Assembly (NCBI RefSeq): GCF_020723905.1 | Contig: NZ_DYHZ01000003.1 | Span: 62,001-126,000, forward strand | Direction: 5' to 3' | DNA length: 64,000 bases | Origin: Anaerolinea thermophila | GTDB lineage: Bacteria > Chloroflexota > Anaerolineae > Anaerolineales > Anaerolineaceae | Part shown: positions 2,973-16,992 of the stretch, piece by piece | How the letters are laid out: each line of letters opens with the position of its first letter | Numbering within the stretch: position 1 is the first letter of the stretch | The notes under the pieces: model-generated | Database searches by the model: none | Told to the model about the DNA's origin: nothing | What the model saw: the letters and a program-made list of their open reading frames with translations, nothing else | Position numbers and translations under genes: made by a program

Positions 2973-4088
2973 TTATTTACTTGCCCAGGCAAACACTCGC
3001 TCGGCACTCACGCTTCCTGCAGGTTCCCAAATGGGTTCGTTGGTCTCTTTATTTGTTCCGGTTTGGCGGACCGGCAGGACGGACCAGCGGAAAATATGAA
3101 GTTTCCCATCCGTTGGACGCAATTCCTCAGGGATGATGTACTTTGTGTCGGTTACGTATGCCACAAATTTCCCTTTACTGCTATCGGTTGCGTCAATCAG
3201 GGTGACGGCGTAGGCTTCATTGGGCCTCAGTTCGCCGACGGCTGCCCACTGCAGGGTGATGATGTCATTCTGAGACAGGAATGAAGCACCATCGGTTGGA
3301 AGCAACAGATTAGGGGCCGGGTAAGGGGGAATAGGGGTGGGTGTAGGAGTGGGTTTTGGTCCACGCTCGCACAACGGGATGATCAATTTTTGTCCCGGGA
3401 AAATGATGTCACCGGGTAATCCATTGTAATCTCTGATGGCTTGAGCGCTCACTCCGTAATTTGCCGAAATTTTGCTCAGCGTATCGGTTTCGGTAACGGT
3501 GTACTCCAGTTTTTCACAGGATGCTTCGGCCTGTTGAGTTGGATCCAGCGTGTTTGTCGGAAGAGGAGTAGGGGTTACCGTTGGATAGGGGATGAGAAGG
3601 GTCTGTCCAACTACCAGTGTATCACAGGCCGCTGGAAGTTTGTTGAGGATGATGATGCTTTGCACCGATACATTGAAAGTAGAGGCGATAGAAATACACG
3701 TATCCAGAGGGGCTACTTTGTATTCAAACGGCGGACGTTCTGTAGCGGTTGGCTCCAGAGTTGCCGTTGGGGAGGGTGTCGGTGTCAGAGTCTGTGTCGG
3801 TGTGATAGAAGGTGTCAGGGTGGGCAACGTAGCCGCTTGAGGGGCTGGCTGAGTAAATTGATACACAGCATAAACCGTTCCTGCACCCACTGCCAGGAGC
3901 AGAATAATCAGACCCAGAAGGGCAGGAAGGCTGAGAGTAATTTCAGGAATGCCCCTCTCTTGTGTTGATTTCCCTTCACTTTCAATGAGCACCGTACCGC
4001 AAACTGTACAGCGGGGTGCATTGTTTGCCAGTCGAGTCCCACAGGTGGGACAAATTTTTGTGTTTGGTGATTGGGTTTCGCCAGTCAT
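2973..4088 (-). CDS. zinc-ribbon, single-TM protein with two LysM domains
   Basis: A 371-residue membrane-anchored protein. The N terminus has a zinc ribbon (C13-x2-C16 and C27-x2-C30), then one transmembrane helix at about 53-77, a Thr/Pro-rich linker, LysM 1 at about 120-168, a second Pro/Thr linker, LysM 2 at about 190-240, another TP-repeat linker and a C-terminal beta-rich domain from about 260. LysM domains bind peptidoglycan or related glycans, so the C-terminal part is expected outside the membrane and the zinc ribbon inside. ATG 4088 has TAAGGAAA just upstream. Function beyond cell-wall attachment is not evident. Confidence 0.85.
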   Translation of the reverse strand: MTGETQSPNTKICPTCGTRLANNAPRCTVCGTVLIESEGKSTQERGIPEITLSLPALLGLIILLLAVGAGTVYAVYQFTQPAPQAATLPTLTPSITPTQTLTPTPSPTATLEPTATERPPFEYKVAPLDTCISIASTFNVSVQSIIILNKLPAACDTLVVGQTLLIPYPTVTPTPLPTNTLDPTQQAEASCEKLEYTVTETDTLSKISANYGVSAQAIRDYNGLPGDIIFPGQKLIIPLCERGPKPTPTPTPIPPYPAPNLLLPTDGASFLSQNDIITLQWAAVGELRPNEAYAVTLIDATDSSKGKFVAYVTDTKYIIPEELRPTDGKLHIFRWSVLPVRQTGTNKETNEPIWEPAGSVSAERVFAWASK

Positions 4089-7742: not shown

Positions 7743-8119
7743 CAATTCGCATAGATGTGTGGCTGTACGGCGAACTGGCAAAGTACGGAGGGGAACAGGC
7801 AAAGGCCGGGTTTGCCAATCTTCAGATAAACCTTCCTGAAGGAGCAACGGTAGCCGATCTTCTCACGCAAATGAAGATGCCCACAGAGGAACGGGGCATC
7901 ACTTTCATTAATGGATTGCTCAGTGCCATGCCGGGTGTGCAACCAGATTTAGCCCATGTGCTTCATGACGGTGACAGGGTAGCATTTTTCCACCTGCGCA
8001 GTATGTGGCCCTTCCAGTATCGCCATGGAGCCAGTATGATCGGCGAACTGGCTCAGGAATTAACCAGCAGAGAGGACAAGGGAATACACCACGATTATCG
8101 GCATGAACGCTCAGGATAA
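7739..8119 (+). CDS. second MoaD/ThiS-like protein without C-terminal GG
   Basis: A 126-residue protein with a beta-grasp domain over residues 1-90: LPEGATVADLLTQMKMP and VLHDGDRVAFFHL match the MoaD/ThiS fold. The C terminus continues about 36 residues and lacks Gly-Gly, so it cannot be a classical sulfur carrier. It may be a structural partner or scaffold for its 81-residue neighbour, with which it is translationally coupled. Its 3' end overlaps the convergent response-regulator gene by 9 bp. Confidence 0.7.
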   Translation: MTIRIDVWLYGELAKYGGEQAKAGFANLQINLPEGATVADLLTQMKMPTEERGITFINGLLSAMPGVQPDLAHVLHDGDRVAFFHLRSMWPFQYRHGASMIGELAQELTSREDKGIHHDYRHERSG

Positions 8120-9178
8120 TGCCATAGCGCTGGAAATACAGTCTTCCAGAATCGTTTTCAAGGTCTTCACGTCTAAATCTTTTTTATCGATAAAGGCTAT
8201 CGCACCGGCTTCCATGCCTAACCGATGGAACTCTCGATCCGGATAGGCGCTGATTAAAACTGTCCGGGTTTGAGGGGAAACTGTCCGGACACGACGGGTG
8301 CACTGTATGCCGTTTTCTTCCCCCCTCAAAACCACATCTATGAAAGCCACGAGGGGTTTGATTTTCTGCGCGATCATGACTGCTGATGCAATATCACCGC
8401 TTTCGTAAATGGAAATCTGGGCGTTTAATTTCCCGATCACATGTGCCAGTTGTTGCCGAAAACGGGGGTTGTCGTCCACAATTAATACCCCAATAGGAAA
8501 ATCTGCTTTGGATGGGCGTTCAGGGGCATTGGGAGAAGAGGGGGTGTGGTGTCCTAGTAATTCGGGGTGCTGGTTGAGGTAATTTACCGCTTCCAGGCGG
8601 CTTTGGACGTTCAATAAACGGTACAGGCGGGTCAGATGATTTTCAATGGTTTTTACTGATAATCCTGTAAGCCGGGCAATTTGCTGATTATCTTTTCCTT
8701 CCCACAGATACAACAAAATTTCCTGTTGTCTTGAGGTTAGGCCTGGGGTGGAAGAATTGGATAGCGCATGCACAAGTTTGCCAATCAGAGGGCTCGAAAT
8801 CCAGTGTTCGCCATTCAAAACCCGTTGCACCGCAAGTTTCAGGTCATTGAGCGGTTGATCTTTGAGATGATAACCGTGAACACCGGCGCTCAACAGTCCC
8901 TGCACATACACATTATCATCATAGGCGCTGACCACTAAAATCTTGAGATTGGGATAATTTAACCGAATAGAATGAATTGCCGGTATGGGGTCAAAGTCCG
9001 GCATGGTCACGTCAATTAATACCAGATCGGGGAGATGTTTCTTGATTTCCTCCTGTAACGATTTTCCGTCCCCGACTTCAGCAACCACTTGAAGATGCTC
9101 GATTTCTTCTAGAACACGGCGAATACCCGCTCTGACTACTTCGTGATCATCAGCAAGTAAGACCCGGTACGCACTCAT
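8111..9178 (-). CDS. response regulator with REC-HTH(LuxR)-REC architecture
   Basis: A 355-residue NarL/LuxR-type regulator with two receiver domains. REC1 (about 1-125) has acidic D10/D11, phosphoacceptor D56 in LIDVTMPD and K106. A LuxR-type HTH follows at about 145-205 (LTSRQQEILLYLWEG, then GLSVKTIENHLTRLYRLL). REC2 (about 228-350) has VDD at 234-236 and D281 in FIDVVLRGEENG. The usual order is REC-HTH alone, so a C-terminal second receiver is unusual. Its likely kinase is the ABC-kinase fusion at 11317, transcribed divergently. A TATAAT lies exactly 7 nt before the ATG, suggesting a leaderless transcript. Confidence 0.85.
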   Translation of the reverse strand: MSAYRVLLADDHEVVRAGIRRVLEEIEHLQVVAEVGDGKSLQEEIKKHLPDLVLIDVTMPDFDPIPAIHSIRLNYPNLKILVVSAYDDNVYVQGLLSAGVHGYHLKDQPLNDLKLAVQRVLNGEHWISSPLIGKLVHALSNSSTPGLTSRQQEILLYLWEGKDNQQIARLTGLSVKTIENHLTRLYRLLNVQSRLEAVNYLNQHPELLGHHTPSSPNAPERPSKADFPIGVLIVDDNPRFRQQLAHVIGKLNAQISIYESGDIASAVMIAQKIKPLVAFIDVVLRGEENGIQCTRRVRTVSPQTRTVLISAYPDREFHRLGMEAGAIAFIDKKDLDVKTLKTILEDCISSAMALS

Positions 9179-9185
9179 GGAAATG

Positions 9186-9193
9186 ATTATAAT
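9186..9193. promoter_or_regulatory. shared -10 box between regulator and importer genes
   Basis: ATTATAAT reads TATAAT on both strands. On minus (9191-9186) it lies exactly 7 nt from the regulator ATG at 9178, which would give a transcript starting at or next to the start codon. On plus (9188-9193) it could serve the permease gene at 9267. Confidence 0.45.
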
Positions 9194-9266
9194 ACCCCTT
9201 TAGGGGAATTCCCTGTGTCTATTGGGGGATTCCTTACTTGTTTTCAAAGCCCTGGGAAGGTATTTT

Positions 9267-10304
9267 ATGAATCACATGGTTTTCCTTTCAAAGACAGAGA
9301 CGATGAGAATGTGGATCAAACGTCTGGGACAACTGTCCTTCAGGAAAGTATTTTATTCATTCCTTGTTCGTCAGGATGTCATTTTAGCAACGGTTTTGGT
9401 TCTCTTAATTGTGATCTTGTCTTTTTCAACCCAGACCTTCCTGACCCGCAATAACTGGCTAAACCTCATGCGAAATTTTGCCTGGATTGCCCTGGCGGCT
9501 CTGGGACAGAGTATCGTCATCATTACAGGAGGGATTGACCTGTCAGTGGGCGCGGTGATGGCACTTGCCAGTGTGGTCACCGCGTTTGCTTTAACCGGAG
9601 GGCTTCCGGTAAGCCTTTCTATAACGCTGGGGCTGGCGGTTGGTGCGTTCATTGGCTTGGTCAATGGTTTCTTTATTGCTAAAGTTCGTCTCCCTGCTTT
9701 TATCACCACGTTAATTACCATGAGCATCAGCCGGGGGATGATCTTCGGGTTGACACAGGGTTGGCCCGTTCGTGACTTACCCGCGTCTTTTCGTGCGCTG
9801 GGTTTTGATTTTGTCCTTGGTAATTTTCTCATCCCCGTCTCTCTGGTGATAGCCCTGGTTTTAGCGTTGCTGGTTGCCTTTGTGATGAACAATACTGTAT
9901 TAGGTACGTATATTTTTGCCCTTGGAAACAGTGAGCGGGCAGTGGTCGTCGCCGGGGTTGATCATATTCGGGTGAAAACCCTGGTTTATGTGATGAGCGG
10001 AGTACTTGCTTCGGTAAGCGGTTTATTACTAACTGCCAGGTTAGGCGTTGCCGCCCCTACCGCCGCCGAAGGGTATGAGTTGAGTATTATCGCTGCTGCG
10101 GTGATCGGCGGTGCGAGCCTGTTTGGCGGCGAGGGTGGGGTGATTGGAGTTTTACTTGGCGCGGCTTTTATCCAGGTGCTGAATAATGCCCTGGTTCTGT
10201 TAGGAATTGCGGCACACTGGCAAACTGCCGCTCTTGGTGTTGCGGCTCTGGTAGCCTTACTGGCGGATTACTTTAGACGCAGGAAGATTCTCCAGGAGGA
10301 GTGA
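9267..10304 (+). CDS. ribose-type ABC transporter permease (RbsC family)
   Basis: A 345-residue inner-membrane permease of the BPD_transp_2 family (ribose/xylose/AI-2 class) with about 8-10 hydrophobic helices. The family signature [13 protein letters not shown] is clear, as is the late [14 protein letters not shown] loop. I chose ATG 9267 because GGAAGG precedes it by about 7 nt; an upstream TTG at 9222 is possible but lacks a good site. It is first in an operon with a binding lipoprotein and an ATPase/kinase fusion. It may transport sugar, or act mainly as the membrane part of a sensor. Confidence 0.85.
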
Positions 10305-10309
10305 GCAAA

Positions 10310-11320
10310 ATGCGCTTCCGTATCATGCCTCTCTTCCTGTTGCTCCTTCTGGGTTTATCTGCCTGCCAGCCTTCTGGTTCCAATCAGGATGGTGGGGTTC
10401 GTACGATAAGAATTGCCTGGATCCCCAAAGCCCTGGATAACCCCGTATTTGAACTGGGAAGGAAAGGTGCTTTTCAGCGGGCAGAAGAACTGTCTGCCTT
10501 TGGGGATGTAAAAGTTGAGGTGATCTACACCGGCTCGGTGAGTTCAGATGCCATGGAACAGGCAAGGGTAGTTGAAGATATGATAGCCAGGAAGGTGGAT
10601 GCTATCGCTATTTCCTGTAATGACCCCGTAGCCTGTATTAATCCAATCAACCAGGCGGTTGATGCCGGCATTCCGGTGATGACATGGGATTCGGATTCCC
10701 CCCAAAGCAAAAGGTTTGCATACCTGGGAGTGGATAATGTAGAAGGCGGTAAGCAAGCCGCAAGATTGTTAATTCAGGTAATGGGTGATTCGGGCAAGAT
10801 TGCCATCCTCACCGGCGTACCCGGAGCCTATAACCTGGAAGAGCGTATTCGCGGTTTTCGTGAAGTCATTGATCAATATCCTGGCATTGAAGTAGTTGCC
10901 GTTCGTTCCACCAACGATGATATTAACTTGAGTGTGCAGGTTGTTGAAGAAACCATGCAAGCCTATCCTGACTTAAACGGATGGTTCTTTGTGGGCATGT
11001 GGCCCCTGCTGGCTGGCAGAGGAGCAATGCCGTTATGGGAACAGGCTGCGTTACACGGCAATCTGAAAACCGTTTCCTGGGATACCATGCCCGAAGAACT
11101 GGAATTTCTCCGGGATGGATACGTATCCGGATTAATCGATCAAAATTGTTGGGCATGGGGATACGATACAGTCCAGGTTCTGTACGATAAATTAGTTCAT
11201 GGAAAATCTACCCCTGCTTTCATTGATGCCGGCTTACGTGTGGTGACGCAAAAAGATGTCGAAGCCATGATGAAAATGTGGGGATCGGGAGATTTTCCTT
11301 CTGCCGGAGGGAAGCCGTGA
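10310..11320 (+). CDS. sugar-binding lipoprotein (RbsB/periplasmic-binding-protein-4 type)
   Basis: A 336-residue solute-binding lipoprotein. A hydrophobic signal ends in the lipobox LSAC (about residues 15-18), followed by a Ser/Gly linker and a two-lobed binding domain ([45 protein letters not shown]), typical of ribose-class proteins. ATG 10310 has AGGAGGA 9 nt upstream; an in-frame GTG at 10301 is too close to that site. It overlaps the following ATPase/kinase gene by 4 bp (GTGA). I infer that it senses a sugar for the associated two-component system. Confidence 0.85.
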
Positions 11321-12927
11321 GCCAGGAACCGTTGTTACGGGTCATTAACCTGACCAAAACATTCGGCACTCTGACTGCTGTCCAGAATGTGAGTTTTGAT
11401 CTTTACCCTGGAGAAGTGGTTGGACTGGCTGGTAGCATCGGTTCTGGAAAATCAGTCTTGATTCTGATGCTTGCGGGATTGTATTCGCCGAACAACGGGG
11501 ATGTTTATTTTGGCACGCAGCGACTGCACTGGCCCTTCCATGCCAAAGATTATCAAATCGGTGTGATTCACCAAAAACCTGAACTGGCAGATCGTCTGGA
11601 TATTACCAGCAATTTGTTCCTGGGACACGAAATGGGTATGCCTTCGTTCTTGGGCTGGTGGCGCATTCCGGATCGAAAACAGATGGATGAAAAAGCCTGC
11701 CAGATCCTTCAGCAATTGGATATAAAAGTTTCAAACCTGCATCAACGGGTGGGTGAACTATCCAGCGAACAACGTCAGATGATTGCAATTGGCAGATTAC
11801 TGACCCACCCTGTGAAACTGGTTATTATTGATGAGCCTACCATTCTCCTGTCTTATCCCAATCAGCAGCGTCTCTTGAGTCTTGTCCAATCCTGGAGAAA
11901 CCAAGGGGTGGCTGTGCTGTTCAGCAGTAACAATCTCGATCATCTGTTTCAGGTCAGTGACCGCATCCTGATCCTTCGGCAGGGACGAAAAGTGGCTGAA
12001 CTGGATACCGATCACACATCCCGGGAAGAGGTTGTAGCCGCTTTATTTGGGTATGATGATGGGCGTGACTTAACACCAGCGCTCTGGGCTTTAGATGGCA
12101 TTTATCGGACGCGCGAGTCGATGGAACGCTTGCGTTATTACCAGATGTTGCTGGAAAAAGATCTTGCGGCACAGGATTCGTTGAACCGTCAGTTGTTTGA
12201 GCAATTATCTGAACAATTGCGCACCCTGGATCAAGCCAATTTAGCCCTTCAGGAAGCCCATCGGCGTTTACTTTCGGAAAGAGAAGAGGAAAGAAAATCG
12301 CTTGCGCGTGAACTCCATGATGATGTCATTCAGGATTTGTTGAGTGTCAATTATCGTCTTGAAGAGATTGAAGAAAATTCAACCAGTTTAAAGGGAGATC
12401 TGGCTCAAATTCGAGAACAGATCCGGCGTCTGGTGGGAGAAGTTCGACAGATTTGTGGAAACCTTCGTCCGCCTACTATTGACTCTTTAGGGTTAGGCGC
12501 TGCTATACAATCATATGCTCAGGAGTGGTCTGATCGTACAGGTATCGAAGTCCATCTGGATCTGGATCCCAATCTTGGGCGTTTGCCAGAGTTAACCGAA
12601 CTTTCCATTTTCCGAATTATTCAGGAAGGGTTGAATAATGTCTGGAAACATGCTCATGCCACGAGAGTTGAAGTAAAAGTTCAACATACGTCCCCACGTA
12701 CATTGCTGGTTTCAATTATGGATGATGGTCAGGGAATTCCGGAACAATTAGATCTGAATGAATTGAACGCTCATGGCCATTATGGATTGCTGGGAATTAA
12801 TGAAAGAGTCGCATTGCTGGGCGGACGTTTTCGCCTTCAGCATCAACCGGGAGGTGGAACCCTGTTACAGGTAGAGATTCCTCACCCCCGTGTCGAAACC
12901 GTAATGTTGAATCAACTCGATGTCTAA
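11317..12927 (+). CDS. ABC transporter ATPase domain fused to a NarL-type histidine kinase
   Basis: A 536-residue fusion. Residues 1-245 are a sugar-type ABC ATPase: Walker A GSIGSGKS at 39-46, Q-loop Q86, Walker B LVIIDE ending D172-E173. The signature is degenerate (LSSEQ at 148-152 instead of LSGGQ) and the switch histidine is replaced (N205 in FSSNNLDH). A coiled-coil linker spans about 265-325, then a HisKA_3 dimerisation domain with H334 in [13 protein letters not shown], and a HATPase with EGLNN, DDGQGIP and YGLLGINER. RbsA-type ATPases carry two nucleotide-binding domains; here a kinase replaces the second. Start is GTG 11317, with GGAGGG upstream. I infer a transporter-coupled sensor kinase acting on the divergent regulator. 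Confidence 0.9.
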
Positions 12928-13024: not shown

Positions 13025-14149
13025 ATGCAAAGCAAACTCTATCGCTCATTGATTGTGATCGTCGTGATCGTCATGGCGCTCACCACCCTGTTGGGGTGTT
13101 CTGCCCCGGCAAACACTGGTGGCGGAAAAACCGAGAAGATCAAAGTCGGCCTTTCGTTCTCCGATTTTGCAACCGAACGCTGGAAGAATGAAGAGCAGTT
13201 GATGCGCAAACTTCTGGAAGAGAAGGGATACGAGGTCCTCTCTCAGGAAGCCAACCATGATGTCAAACTGCAGAATGATCAGGTTGATAACATGGTCAGC
13301 CAGGGCGTAAAAGCCCTCATCATCGTTCCAGAAGATGGTGATGCCATCGTCACGGCAGTTGAGAAGGCCGCAAAAGCCGGCGTAAAGGTTATTGCTTACG
13401 ATCGCTTGATTAAGAGCACCAGCATTGCAGCGTACATTTCCTTCAACAATGTGGAAGTGGGACGCCAGCAGGCTCTGGGTGTCATGAAAGCCCTGGACAT
13501 CGACAACTGGGACGTGGCTTCCAAAGGGAAGGCTCGTGTGGTGAAACTCGGCGGTAGCCCGACCGATAACAACGCGATCCTCTTCCGCAAAGGGCAGGAT
13601 GAAATCCTCCAGAAGTACATCGATGAAGGCAAGATCGAAATTGTGGCGGACCAATGGGTGGATAACTGGGATCCTGCCAATGCTCTGAAGATCATGGAAA
13701 ACATCCTGACCGCACAGAAGAATGACATTGATGCAGTGGTGGCGTCCAATGATGGTACGGCTTTAGGTGCATTGCAGGCTCTGAAGGCTCAAAAACTGGC
13801 TGGTGTGGTACCGATTTCCGGTCAGGACGCGACGGCAGATGGCTGCAATAGCATTGTCAAAGGCGAATTGACGGTCACCATTTTGAAGGATATCCGCGAT
13901 CTGGCGCCGCTGGCAGTGGATCTGGCAGACAAACTGATCAAAGGTGAGAAAATCGAAGGCTTGAAGAATTACACTATGGCTGAACTCACCAATGATCCCA
14001 GCAAGACCGGTGAGGTACCCTGCTACTTCCTGCCGGTTTCCCAGGTCACCAAAGATAATGTGTACGAACTGGTTGTGAAGAGCGGTTTCCAGAAATACGA
14101 AGATGTCTACCGCGACATTCCTGAGGATCAGCGTCCTCCCAAACCATAA
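13025..14149 (+). CDS. xylF: xylose-type sugar-binding lipoprotein
   Basis: A 374-residue substrate-binding lipoprotein of the XylF/ChvE class. The signal peptide ends in LLGCS (Cys at about residue 25), followed by a Gly-rich linker. Family landmarks are GVKVIAYDRLI, VVASNDGTALGALQAL and VPISGQDAT, which match D-xylose-binding proteins well, although glucose, arabinose or galactose specificity cannot be excluded. GGAGAGG lies 5 nt before the ATG. It leads a binding protein-ATPase-permease operon and is followed by a GC-rich hairpin, a common way of raising the level of the binding-protein mRNA. Confidence 0.88.
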   Translation: MQSKLYRSLIVIVVIVMALTTLLGCSAPANTGGGKTEKIKVGLSFSDFATERWKNEEQLMRKLLEEKGYEVLSQEANHDVKLQNDQVDNMVSQGVKALIIVPEDGDAIVTAVEKAAKAGVKVIAYDRLIKSTSIAAYISFNNVEVGRQQALGVMKALDIDNWDVASKGKARVVKLGGSPTDNNAILFRKGQDEILQKYIDEGKIEIVADQWVDNWDPANALKIMENILTAQKNDIDAVVASNDGTALGALQALKAQKLAGVVPISGQDATADGCNSIVKGELTVTILKDIRDLAPLAVDLADKLIKGEKIEGLKNYTMAELTNDPSKTGEVPCYFLPVSQVTKDNVYELVVKSGFQKYEDVYRDIPEDQRPPKP

Positions 14150-14168
14150 GTTAACTGACTGATACCTT

Positions 14169-14194
14169 CCCCGGCTCCCTTCGGGGAGCCGGGG
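14169..14194 (+). terminator. stable UUCG hairpin between xylF and xylG
   Basis: A perfect 11-bp GC-rich stem (14169-14179 with 14184-14194) is closed by the tetraloop TTCG. No T-run follows, so it is more likely an mRNA 3'-end stabiliser or partial terminator that favours xylF over the downstream transporter genes. Confidence 0.6.
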
Positions 14195-14228
14195 GTAACT
14201 TTTAGCAGAACAAGTGAGGAGAGAGCCT

Positions 14229-15764
14229 GTGGAAGATAATATTCTGGAATTTCGCAATGTAACCAAACGATTCCCGGGTATCGTTGCCTTGAATGACGTC
14301 TCATTCACGATTAAACGTGGGGAGATTCACGGCATTTGTGGCGAGAACGGGGCTGGAAAATCCACCCTGATGAAAATCTTGTCCGGGGTATATCCTTATG
14401 GGACATATGAGGGAACGATTCTATACGATGGGAAAGAACTGCGCCTTCAAGATCGCTCCATCCGTCAAGCCATTGAAGAAGGGATTGCGATTGTTTATCA
14501 GGAATTGACTCTCGTTCCGAATATGACCGTAGGGGAAAATATCTTTCTGGGTAAAGAACCCCTTTTGCCCAATGGTTCCATTGATTGGGACCGGCTTTAC
14601 GCGGAAACAGCGAAAATTCTGGAGAAATACCGGTTAGATATCCAGCCACAGGCGATTGTGAAATACCTAGGTGTAGGGAAAATGCAAATGGCAGAAATTG
14701 CCAAAGCGCTTGCTGAAAACGCCAAGGTTTTGATTCTGGATGAGCCCACAAGCGCCTTAACCGAAGCCGAGGTAGATAAACTCATGGAGATTCTCCAGAC
14801 GCTCAAGGAGCATGGCGTTACCTGTATCTATATTACGCACAAACTGGAAGAGTTTTTCCGCATCACCGATTCCATTACGGTGTTGCGAGATGGAAAAGCC
14901 ATCATCACTGCCCCAACCCGGGAACTTAATTTGGAAAAACTGGTCAGTTACATGGTTGGGAGAGAGATGAAGGAGCGTTTCCCTAAAGGCAATCGTCATC
15001 CGGGGAAAGTCATTTTTGAAGTTGAAAATTTGCACGCCATTGATCCCAATGACCCTGAGAGGAAAATCTTGAATGGCGTGAGTTTTGATTTACGCGAAGG
15101 AGAAATTCTTGGAATTGCCGGACTGATGGGCTCTGGGCGTACTGAACTTGTGACCACAATTTTCGGCGAGTATGGAAAAATTACTCAAGGAAAGATTCGG
15201 CTGGATGGAAAAGAGATCCAAATTCACAGCGCTCGAGATGCAATGAGACATGGCATCAGCCTTGTACCGGAGGACCGGAAAGGTATGGGACTGGTGCTGA
15301 TGCAATCCATTTTGAAAAACATCTCCCTTCCCAATTTAGATCGTTTTGCCTCGTTCATGCGCATCAATGAACTGGCAGAACTGAAAGCGGCTGTTACCCA
15401 GGCTAAAAATTTGGCCATTAAAGCATCCACTTTACAAGCGCCTTGCGATTCTCTATCTGGGGGTAACCAGCAGAAAGTGGTTATTGCCAAGTGGTTGTTG
15501 TCTTCTCCGCGTATCCTGATTATGGATGATCCTACACGGGGCATTGATGTTGGGGCAAAGTACGAAATTTACAAGTTAATGAATGAACTGGCAGAGAGAG
15601 GCGTGGCAATTATCATGATTTCCTCTGAATTAGAGGAAGTTCTGGGGATGAGTGATCGGATTGTAGTTATGCACGAAGGACGTTCCAATGGGTGTCTTTC
15701 CATTCATGAGGCTACCCAGGAGAAAATCATGACTCTGGCTACTGGCATTGCTGAGATGGTATAA
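14229..15764 (+). CDS. xylG: xylose-type ABC transporter ATPase, two nucleotide-binding domains
   Basis: A 511-residue cytoplasmic ATPase with the duplicated layout of RbsA/XylG/MglA. Domain 1 has Walker A GENGAGKS, Q-loop YQE, and Walker B ILDEPTSALTEAE with the switch His in YITHKLEE. Domain 2 has GLMGSGRTE, a canonical LSGGNQQK signature and ILIMDDPTRGIDVGAK. It energises sugar import by the neighbouring permease. I chose GTG 14229, preceded by AGGAGAG with 6-nt spacing, over GTG 14214. The intact motifs contrast with the degenerate ATPase domain of the kinase fusion upstream. Confidence 0.9.
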   Translation: MEDNILEFRNVTKRFPGIVALNDVSFTIKRGEIHGICGENGAGKSTLMKILSGVYPYGTYEGTILYDGKELRLQDRSIRQAIEEGIAIVYQELTLVPNMTVGENIFLGKEPLLPNGSIDWDRLYAETAKILEKYRLDIQPQAIVKYLGVGKMQMAEIAKALAENAKVLILDEPTSALTEAEVDKLMEILQTLKEHGVTCIYITHKLEEFFRITDSITVLRDGKAIITAPTRELNLEKLVSYMVGREMKERFPKGNRHPGKVIFEVENLHAIDPNDPERKILNGVSFDLREGEILGIAGLMGSGRTELVTTIFGEYGKITQGKIRLDGKEIQIHSARDAMRHGISLVPEDRKGMGLVLMQSILKNISLPNLDRFASFMRINELAELKAAVTQAKNLAIKASTLQAPCDSLSGGNQQKVVIAKWLLSSPRILIMDDPTRGIDVGAKYEIYKLMNELAERGVAIIMISSELEEVLGMSDRIVVMHEGRSNGCLSIHEATQEKIMTLATGIAEMV

Positions 15765-15789
15765 ATTTCTACCGAAACGAGGAATACCT

Positions 15790-16992
15790 ATGGCTACAAT
15801 AAGTGAAACCAAATCACGAATCAATCTCTGGGAAGAGATTCTGAAACGCTTTCGTCTCAATATTCAGACCTACACCATAATTCTGGCATTGGTGGCAATC
15901 TGGATTCTATTCACAATTTTGACCGGCGGTGCCTATTTAAAACCTCAAAATTTCTCAAATCTTTTCCGTCAAATGACCGTAACCTCGTTCCTTGCGGCAG
16001 GGATGGTTCTGGTCATTGTGACGGGAAACATTGACCTTTCCGTCGGAAAACTGGCAGGTTTTGTTTCGGTAGTGGTAGCGTATTTTCAGGCAAATATCTG
16101 GAATCATCTGTTACCCAATCAACCTCTCATTGCTGCTGCTCTTTCGGTCCTGGTTGGTTTAGGCGTCGGTACCCTTTTTGGAGTTATCCAAGGTTATATC
16201 ATCTCTTATTTGCAGGTACCCTCTTTCATCGTTACTCTGGGAGGAATGTGGATCCTCAACGGTGGGATTTTGATTGTCACTGAAGGGAAAACCATTCCGG
16301 CAAACCAGCCAGCGTTTTCAGAGATTGCTCAGGGATATCTTCCTTCATGGCTTGGATGGGTTTTGGCCATTGGGGTGGTCATTTTGCTCTTCTACTCTAT
16401 GTTGCGAAGCCGACAGCGAAAGCGCCAGTACGGGTTTGAATTGTCCAGTCTTTCTTTAGATATTTTGACAACGACATTCTTTTCCATTCTGGTGATCGTT
16501 TATGTGTATATCGTCAATATGTACAATGGCGTTCAAACGCCGGTGCTCTTGCTGGCAATTACAGCCGTTCTGATGTCTTATATCTCCAGCAATACGCGCT
16601 TTGGACGATATGCTTATGCGATTGGTGGCAACCGTGAAGCGGCGCGGCTTTCTGGTATCAACATCCGTAAAAATATTTTCATGATTTTTGTTCTGATGGG
16701 GTTCCTCTCGGGAGTTTCAGGCATTGTCCTGGCTTCCTACGTTGGCTATGGCACTATTGCGGCGGGGACCGGTTATGAGTTGGATGCAATTGCCTCTTGT
16801 ATTTTGGGCGGTACCTCTACGCTGGGTGGTGTAGGTACTGTCTTCGGTGCCATGATTGGTTCCCTTATTATGACCAGTCTGACTAATGGACTTCAGATGA
16901 TGAACGTCCAGCCCGCCTGGCAGTATTTGCTTAAAGGGATTGTGTTGATTCTGGCAGTTTATGCTGACGTTTACTTCAAGAAGAATCGTTGA
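15790..16992 (+). CDS. xylH: xylose-type ABC transporter permease
   Basis: A 400-residue polytopic membrane protein of the BPD_transp_2 family, about 10-12 helices. The signature GNIDLSVGKLAGFVSV and the late loop GGTSTLGGVGTVFGAMIG are present. Its length and extra central hydrophobic segments fit XylH rather than the shorter RbsC type. ATG 15790 is preceded by GAGGAA and follows xylG by 25 bp; an in-frame ATG at 15748 would overlap xylG and lacks a site. It forms the import channel with XylF and XylG. Confidence 0.87.
   Translation: MATISETKSRINLWEEILKRFRLNIQTYTIILALVAIWILFTILTGGAYLKPQNFSNLFRQMTVTSFLAAGMVLVIVTGNIDLSVGKLAGFVSVVVAYFQANIWNHLLPNQPLIAAALSVLVGLGVGTLFGVIQGYIISYLQVPSFIVTLGGMWILNGGILIVTEGKTIPANQPAFSEIAQGYLPSWLGWVLAIGVVILLFYSMLRSRQRKRQYGFELSSLSLDILTTTFFSILVIVYVYIVNMYNGVQTPVLLLAITAVLMSYISSNTRFGRYAYAIGGNREAARLSGINIRKNIFMIFVLMGFLSGVSGIVLASYVGYGTIAAGTGYELDAIASCILGGTSTLGGVGTVFGAMIGSLIMTSLTNGLQMMNVQPAWQYLLKGIVLILAVYADVYFKKNR

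Follow-up and report, generated by a model that had tools for sequence, protein, structure and literature searches.

A single gene in a 64,000-nucleotide stretch of the Anaerolinea thermophila genome (assembly GCF_020723905.1, contig NZ_DYHZ01000003.1, positions 62,001 to 126,000; the window in what follows) joins the nucleotide-binding domain of a sugar importer to a histidine kinase. We call the product ABC-HK, for its ATP-binding cassette (ABC) and its histidine kinase (HK). Beside it lie genes for a permease (permease 1), a sugar-type binding protein (binding protein 1) and a response regulator, and we think it likely that together they form a sugar receptor that derives from an importer, has a two-component system to itself and probably does not pump. 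The fuller version is an even call: that a whole importer (binding protein, permease with an altered loop, and a hydrolysis-dead ATPase subunit serving as input to the kinase) has been turned into a non-pumping receptor. An initial annotation, made from the letters of the window alone, had described the fusion and proposed that it reads substrate capture as phosphorylation, which such a protein beside a permease and a binding protein plausibly does. It made no mention of several features described below: the degenerate signature and lost H-loop, the regulator that goes with the kinase, the altered loop of the permease, and a palindrome.

The fusion is real. ABC-HK is encoded by one intact open reading frame (ORF) of 536 codons whose GTG start overlaps the TGA that ends the preceding binding-protein gene; an in-frame GTG further upstream, at 11278, is an alternative start. 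A Pfam search found both parts in the one chain, as ABC_tran (residues 22–175, 90 bits), HisKA_3 (47.6 bits) and HATPase_c (47.2 bits). Walker A (GSIGSGKS, 39–46), Walker B (LVIIDE, 168–173) and the phosphoacceptor His334, within ELHDD (332–336), are all as first annotated, and the Q-loop Gln is residue 86. Two motifs are degenerate: the signature reads LSSEQ (148–152), not LSGGQ, and the H-loop reads SNN, not SHx, with Asn at position 205. A frameshift or an assembly join of two genes is rejected, because fusions recur in the window genome, in a record of Brevefilum sp. KA23 (L039) and in 76 further genomes; nor are the two parts always separate in homologues, there being 79 fusions, in 78 of which coverage of the window protein exceeds 93%.

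How widespread is it? Among the matches listed for 301 genomes of the phylum, 23 genomes have one that spans both halves (L009–L031). In the class, the fusion is present in 61 of 396 genomes and 44 of 222 genera (E ≤ 1e-60), some copies being cut by contig ends, and overall it is known from at least two classes of this one phylum. Our comparisons draw on 82 stretches: 79 with the fusion (the window protein, L039 and two copies from genome G338 among them), one with a fragment only (L147) and two regulator loci (L148 and L149), from genomes that we take to be Herpetosiphon-like. Three of the 63 places found in the class search lie outside the 79, two of them partial (G598 and G648) and one a fragment (G477). 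A scan of genome contigs with short peptide patterns, which catch close relatives only and say little about other phyla, gave six loci with one full fusion, that of L039. Spread on plasmids is rejected, as none of 72,556 plasmid records has one place covering 80% of ABC-HK. In a tree with 34 controls, the nucleotide-binding domains (NBDs) of 49 representative fusions form one clade (support 100/100); within the set compared, the fusion has a single origin. These NBDs sit with canonical single-NBD sugar ATPases and with neither half of the XylG-type proteins, at a weak fork (74/78). The suggestion that the kinase had replaced the second NBD of a two-NBD ATPase is consequently not favoured, and nor is a truncated two-NBD ATPase, though the fork that decides the matter is that weak one.

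What sets the ABC domain apart is its catalytic site. The H-loop His is found in none of the 79 fusions, and the second Gly of the signature (position 151) has become Glu in 78 and Asp in one. The catalytic Glu173 is kept in 35 and is Asp in 32. The Walker A Lys (K45) is kept in 73, the Walker B Asp (D172) in 77 and the Q-loop Gln in 69, and the FLGxE stretch that follows the Q-loop is retained as in working relatives (L102 in 77, G103 in 77 and E105 in all 79). Single-NBD relatives from the same loci served as one control (15 of 19; four at 28–30% identity were dropped): Lys, Gln, Ser, second Gly, Asp, Glu and His are present in 15/15 and the first Gly in 14/15. Two-NBD ATPases were the other (37 proteins of 41; the rest were set aside for low identity or length), in which every first half has the Lys and the His, with a degenerate signature of its own that is mostly LGVG, and every second half has LSGG, with Arg in place of the Lys and Ser in place of the His. 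No clear difference in motif decay was seen between types of locus, in counts made on an earlier alignment.

The near-invariant Glu in the signature suggests that the change is maintained, rather than a product of random decay. In human CFTR, the G551D substitution, which puts Asp in place of Gly at this very point of the signature, blocks the ATP-driven closure of the NBDs. Whatever the partner, a hydrolysing NBD pair would be unexpected, because one composite site would lack its His and the other would carry a charged signature. The ABC_tran fold with its Walker A and B motifs is that of the CUT2 ATPases; the intact hydrolysis site of those enzymes (signature, catalytic Glu and H-loop His) is gone, and the protein scores 149.2 bits with its best model, PRK13549, against a cut-off of 699, curated models here being of two-NBD proteins. 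The first description as an importer ATPase therefore stands for the fold and probably falls for a working enzyme. On these residue counts the ABC domain is probably a conserved pseudo-ATPase, one that would dock and, in most copies, bind ATP without powering transport.

The kinase half, to judge from its residues, is intact. His334, Asn441, Gly471, Gly473 and Gly490 are each present in 79/79 fusions and Gly493 in 72/79, and the HisKA_3 phospho-His together with the N and G boxes of HATPase_c bears out the complete NarL-type kinase that had been proposed. The closest curated models are MctS (136.2 bits) and UhpB (117.2), then LiaS and NarX, all far below their cut-offs; the kinase part alone has sequence matches to VraS and DesK. 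Between the halves runs a linker in which Pro254, Trp257, Ala258, Leu272, Gln300, Leu311, Gln312, Arg317 and Glu323 are invariant across 60 sequences. A predicted structure of ABC-HK (mean predicted local distance difference test score, pLDDT, 86.5; predicted template-modelling score 0.60; NBD blocks mostly 92–98) joins the two confident halves by helices 254–284 and 289–354, at lower confidence, and the best 50 of its 1797 Foldseek matches are all ABC ATPase chains. Neither Pfam nor the model gave a membrane domain in ABC-HK, the highest 19-residue hydropathy being 1.72, with a single position above 1.6. Since the protein is cytosolic and has no membrane domain, its NBD would be the input module.

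The permease has changed too. We analysed 67 permeases (of 71 called, five were set aside on grounds of length or poor identity, and the fused chain of L163, described below, was added). A GGNxEAA-type loop is found in all 50 ATPase-linked permeases by a relaxed pattern and in 47 by the strict E-A/S-A one, and it is lost in 16 of the 17 permeases that lie upstream of a fusion with no adjacent ATPase gene. The sole keeper is that of L135, whose contig starts 191 bases before the permease, so that an adjacent ATPase gene may have been cut off. In permease 1, residues 234–246 replace GGNxEAAxxSGI; the window reads ERAV here and nine of the 17 read ERAL. One locus, L150, has the same permease family twice, GGNEQAA in the ATPase-linked copy and GSSERAL in the HK-linked one. 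At L175 a change of loop (GGNQNAA) has occurred in a separate permease lineage. A model of permease 1 (mean pLDDT 91) places the loop in two short helices, 226–236 and 238–243, between long ones. Its top fold match, a weak one (E 0.0099), is BtuC, in which such short helices touch the ATPase. By sequence, no solved chain matched either permease of the window at E 0.01 or the two-NBD ATPase downstream at E 1e-40.

The gene directly upstream of the fusion (same strand, within 1200 bp) is a second-type permease in 23 of the 79, the regulator in 19, binding protein 1 in nine and permease 1 in six; the other 22 have no called gene there. At L163 (2748–4865), the gene directly before the fusion encodes permease and binding protein in one 705-residue chain (BPD_transp_2 at 56–324, Peripla_BP_4 at 404–665). 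Other oddities surround these genes. A protein of FG-GAP/UnbV_ASPIC repeats is encoded between permease and ABC-HK at L177 (9645–11414); an importer binding protein at L133 (1003–3249) contains, by Pfam, a tandem pair of Peripla_BP_4 stretches within a single chain, and long binding-protein ORFs resembling it are found in other loci.

A response regulator accompanies the fusion. It has two receiver (REC) domains on either side of a LuxR-type helix-turn-helix (HTH), and each of the 23 phylum genomes with the fusion has one match to it (23/23, E ≤ 1e-40). Among the 396 class genomes, 61 have the fusion, 62 the regulator and 58 both (Fisher p 8e-61, not corrected for relatedness). G505, G549 and G587 have the fusion alone and G361, G388, G411 and G480 the regulator alone; a truncated piece of regulator lies upstream of the G549 fusion (L180). 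Both phosphoacceptors, D56 and D281, are kept in 57/57 aligned regulators (62 were called, and five short or dissimilar ones were dropped). The best curated model, MctR at 169.7 bits, falls far below its cut-off. Co-occurrence argues that this REC–HTH–REC protein is the dedicated partner of ABC-HK, a cognate regulator of the REC–LuxR kind. Divergent from the regulator at L150 (11820–14765) is a gene whose product, of 981 residues, has three sugar-binding-protein domains in tandem by Pfam, and L153 (1070–4024) has a similar ORF of 984 residues.

Promoters in many of these loci carry a palindrome. A GGGGA-N2-TCCCC inverted repeat is present in 14 of 32 divergent regions, and in at most two in each of five plain shuffles. 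For TAGGGG-N4/5-CCCCTA with up to one mismatch, the promoter mask, 35.6 kb in all, has 43 sites versus six in 1134 kb elsewhere, a 228-fold enrichment in a mask whose binding-protein and permease-1 promoters were added after sites had been seen there; the first mask, upstream of the regulator only, gave 66-fold, with the palindrome in 25 of 57 loci. Within the extended mask 37 of 62 eligible loci have it. The spacer is A/T-rich (82%), and TAGGGGAAATCCCCTA is a candidate regulator target. In the loci L058–L064, which we take to be Chloroflexus-like, the palindrome precedes the binding-protein gene. Outside the mask, the sites of L066, L161, L187 and L188 lie about 270–440 bp before a binding-protein ORF, that of L046 about 820 bp before an ATPase ORF and that of L184 near no called gene. 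Across whole genomes, exact palindromes are present in 25 of 61 fusion genomes (the 25 counted by eye) versus 45 of 335 others, so the motif is enriched but not specific on its own. Sigma-70-like promoter sites did not rise above shuffles (13 versus a mean of 12.2). We regard the palindrome as a putative operator, which the regulator may bind on importer and regulator promoters. TAGGGG boxes in direct orientation form two clusters at window positions 3311–3590, away from the locus, and G451, a genome with no fusion match, has 23 exact TAGGGG-N4/5-CCCCTA matches (CAAAG is one of the spacers) that probably belong to a repeat of another kind.

The path that we infer, from ligand through docking, ATP binding without hydrolysis and phosphotransfer to operator binding, would run as follows. 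The docking site for the NBD of ABC-HK would be the short helices that a CUT2 permease (ribose/xylose-type) exposes to the cytoplasm. For the window that permease would be permease 1, whose operon has no other ATPase, and binding protein 1 would serve it on the outer side. Once loaded with sugar, the binding protein would engage the permease, and a conformational change of the permease, not ATP hydrolysis, would shift the two docked NBDs. The helical linker would relay their motion to the dimerization and histidine phosphotransfer (DHp) dimer and alter autophosphorylation of His334. Phosphate would then pass to the REC–HTH–REC regulator, acting at TAGGGG-N4/5-CCCCTA on divergent promoters of regulator and importer to set expression of the real sugar importer. 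Pump and sensor would thus be separate importer copies in the window; in loci that lack permease 1, the docking partner of ABC-HK is probably the permease that does the transporting.

Several observations weigh against this scheme. The Walker A Lys is lost in five of the 79 fusions (another is truncated at the edge of its contig), and ATP binding is therefore not universal. Nine stretches (L051–L056, L146, L158 and L171, some of them cut by contig ends) have neither regulator nor permease near the fusion; for L051–L056 the regulator is elsewhere in the genome, and in both regulator loci examined (L148 and L149) an importer lies beside it. The seven Chloroflexus-like loci, and others, have no spare permease, so docking there would compete with a live ATPase. 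The permease-1 genes are one lineage, and the loop count is for that reason mostly one event, plus L175. The palindrome is missing, at one mismatch inside the mask, from 25 of the 62 eligible loci, and the window's own copy, TAGGGGAATTCCCTGT, is degenerate, with three mismatches to TAGGGG-N4/5-CCCCTA; about 0.03 such degenerate sites would be expected by chance per 88 bp for each spacing.

Of the alternatives, the one that survives best, though we rate it unlikely, has ABC-HK join a working importer beside its live ATPase, in a mixed NBD pair or as an extra subunit, and report transport as BceS does with BceAB, permease 1 being a later specialization. The 23 fusions directly preceded by a second-type permease speak for it, an ATPase gene adjoining that permease in 20 of them, as do a Walker A Lys kept in 21/21 of a subset of such loci and the fact that loci with an HK-only permease are in the minority. 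Yet the missing His and acidic signature should stall the motor whichever NBD pairs with that of ABC-HK, and in permease-1 operons no ATPase gene separates the permease from the fusion. It is improbable that ABC-HK is a cytosolic sensor of energy or nucleotide, its NBD reading ATP/ADP with no permease and tuning the kinase. Such a sensor would suit a fusion with no membrane domain, its mostly kept nucleotide-binding residues and the copies with no neighbouring permease (L051–L056), but the loop change in the partner permease, the retained FLGxE, the permease–binding-protein chain of L163 and the frequent linkage to CUT2 importers all point to docking. Least probable of all is the bifunctional protein of the initial annotation, with an active ATPase powering permease 1 and a kinase half that signals: Walker A and B are intact in the window protein, and no other NBD is encoded from permease 1 to the next gene for a binding protein, but a still-active ATPase is disfavoured when the H-loop His is present in 0/79 fusions and the signature is acidic in 79/79, single-NBD relatives keeping the His and the signature Gly (15/15).

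The locus is laid out in Table 1. Permease 1 is listed from a TTG at 9222; the ATG at 9267 is a likelier start. It scores 214.9 bits with the ribose permease model (cut-off 398), and binding protein 1 matches best, and weakly, a rhamnose-binding model (106.3 bits against a cut-off of 342.25); orthologs of binding protein 1 hold the same position in L045, L046, L047 and L048. The second importer, downstream of ABC-HK, is complete and resembles xylose or multiple-monosaccharide systems, every score being below the curated cut-off. Between its binding protein 2 and ATPase genes, at 14168–14195, is a terminator-like hairpin of 12 pairs, which could permit higher expression of binding protein 2.

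Table 1. Coordinates of the ABC-HK locus and the adjoining importer (window positions)
Feature	Coordinates	Strand	Basis or remark
Putative cognate response regulator, REC–HTH (LuxR-type)–REC	8111..9178	-	Pfam Response_reg x2 + GerE
Divergent promoter region	9179..9266		Operator-like TAGGGGAATTCCCTGT at 9201-9216, weak in the window
Permease 1 (BPD_transp_2, RbsC-like), HK-linked	9222..10304	+	Pfam
Substrate-binding protein 1 (Peripla_BP_4)	10301..11320	+	Pfam; lipobox-like LSAC (by eye)
ABC-HK, probable pseudo-ATPase NBD + HisKA_3/HATPase_c kinase	11317..12927	+	Pfam, residue counts
ABC-HK NBD, residues 1-250	11317..12066	+	
ABC-HK helical linker, residues 251-324	12067..12288	+	
ABC-HK kinase, HisKA_3 325-386 (H334) and HATPase_c 429-524	12289..12888	+	
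Binding protein 2, second importer (XylF/ChvE-like)	13025..14149	+	xylF model 321.9 bits, cut-off 389.55
Two-NBD ATPase, second importer (XylG-like)	14214..15764	+	PRK13549 694.5 bits, cut-off 699
Permease 2, second importer (GguB-like)	15748..16992	+	328 bits, cut-off 450; canonical loop GGNREAARLSGI

Where does this system belong? On sequence grounds it would work like a trigger or sensory transporter, the L163 chain and the permease-loop change giving indirect support to contact between permease and kinase, and it has the full set of defining features of none of the transporter or transporter-kinase families with which we compared it. The NBD is of the same family as that of the CUT2 ATPases (XylG, RbsA and the FrcA-like single-NBD proteins), but its hydrolysis motifs are lost and its second half is a kinase. 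With UhpB/UhpC/UhpA and MctS/MctR it shares a NarL-type kinase and regulator; UhpC is a homolog of secondary transporters and not an ABC protein. Transport modules act as the sensory input of a kinase in CbrA (SLC5–STAC–HK; PMC7096432) and in Ks-Amt5 (Amt–HK; PMC5764959). There the membrane transporter is itself fused to the kinase, whereas no membrane transporter lies in the ABC-HK chain: a soluble ATPase subunit is fused, its ATPase motifs are lost, and permease and binding protein are separate. The BceAB transporter and the BceS kinase control each other in one complex (PMC10314905). BceS is a separate membrane kinase; ABC-HK has NBD and kinase in one soluble chain with a partner of the sugar-importer type, the neighbouring permease being BPD_transp_2. 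In XylFII–LytS (compare TorT–TorS and LuxP–LuxQ) a binding protein activates the kinase (PMC6321045), and PMC11113362 also covers kinases activated in this way. The likeness is in the ligand receptor, which is likely to be a binding protein of the sugar type. The difference is that those binding proteins contact the kinase's own ligand domain, which ABC-HK does not have, so that a permease would be needed between the two. The initial annotation knew of no such fusion as a described system, and we found no account of an ABC ATPase–kinase fusion in the full-text literature searched, with partly strict terms and few subscription papers, a search that does not establish absence from print.

Apparently, then, what was once a pump for import has become, in many Chloroflexota, a receptor for sugar that activates genes by way of a dedicated partner regulator. 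Transporters that signal are already known. New, if the reading is right, would be an importer's ATPase subunit as the input to a kinase, its catalysis lost and its permease changed to match. Nature would here have cleanly split an importer's two tasks, pumping and the detection of its loaded binding protein, and the system lets the question of how far permease movement reaches the NBDs without ATP hydrolysis be tested directly. It would also offer a sugar sensor of modular build, for which a regulator and an operator are predicted, and would represent a class of its own among transmembrane receptors, with the coupling machinery of an importer serving as pure conformational signalling.

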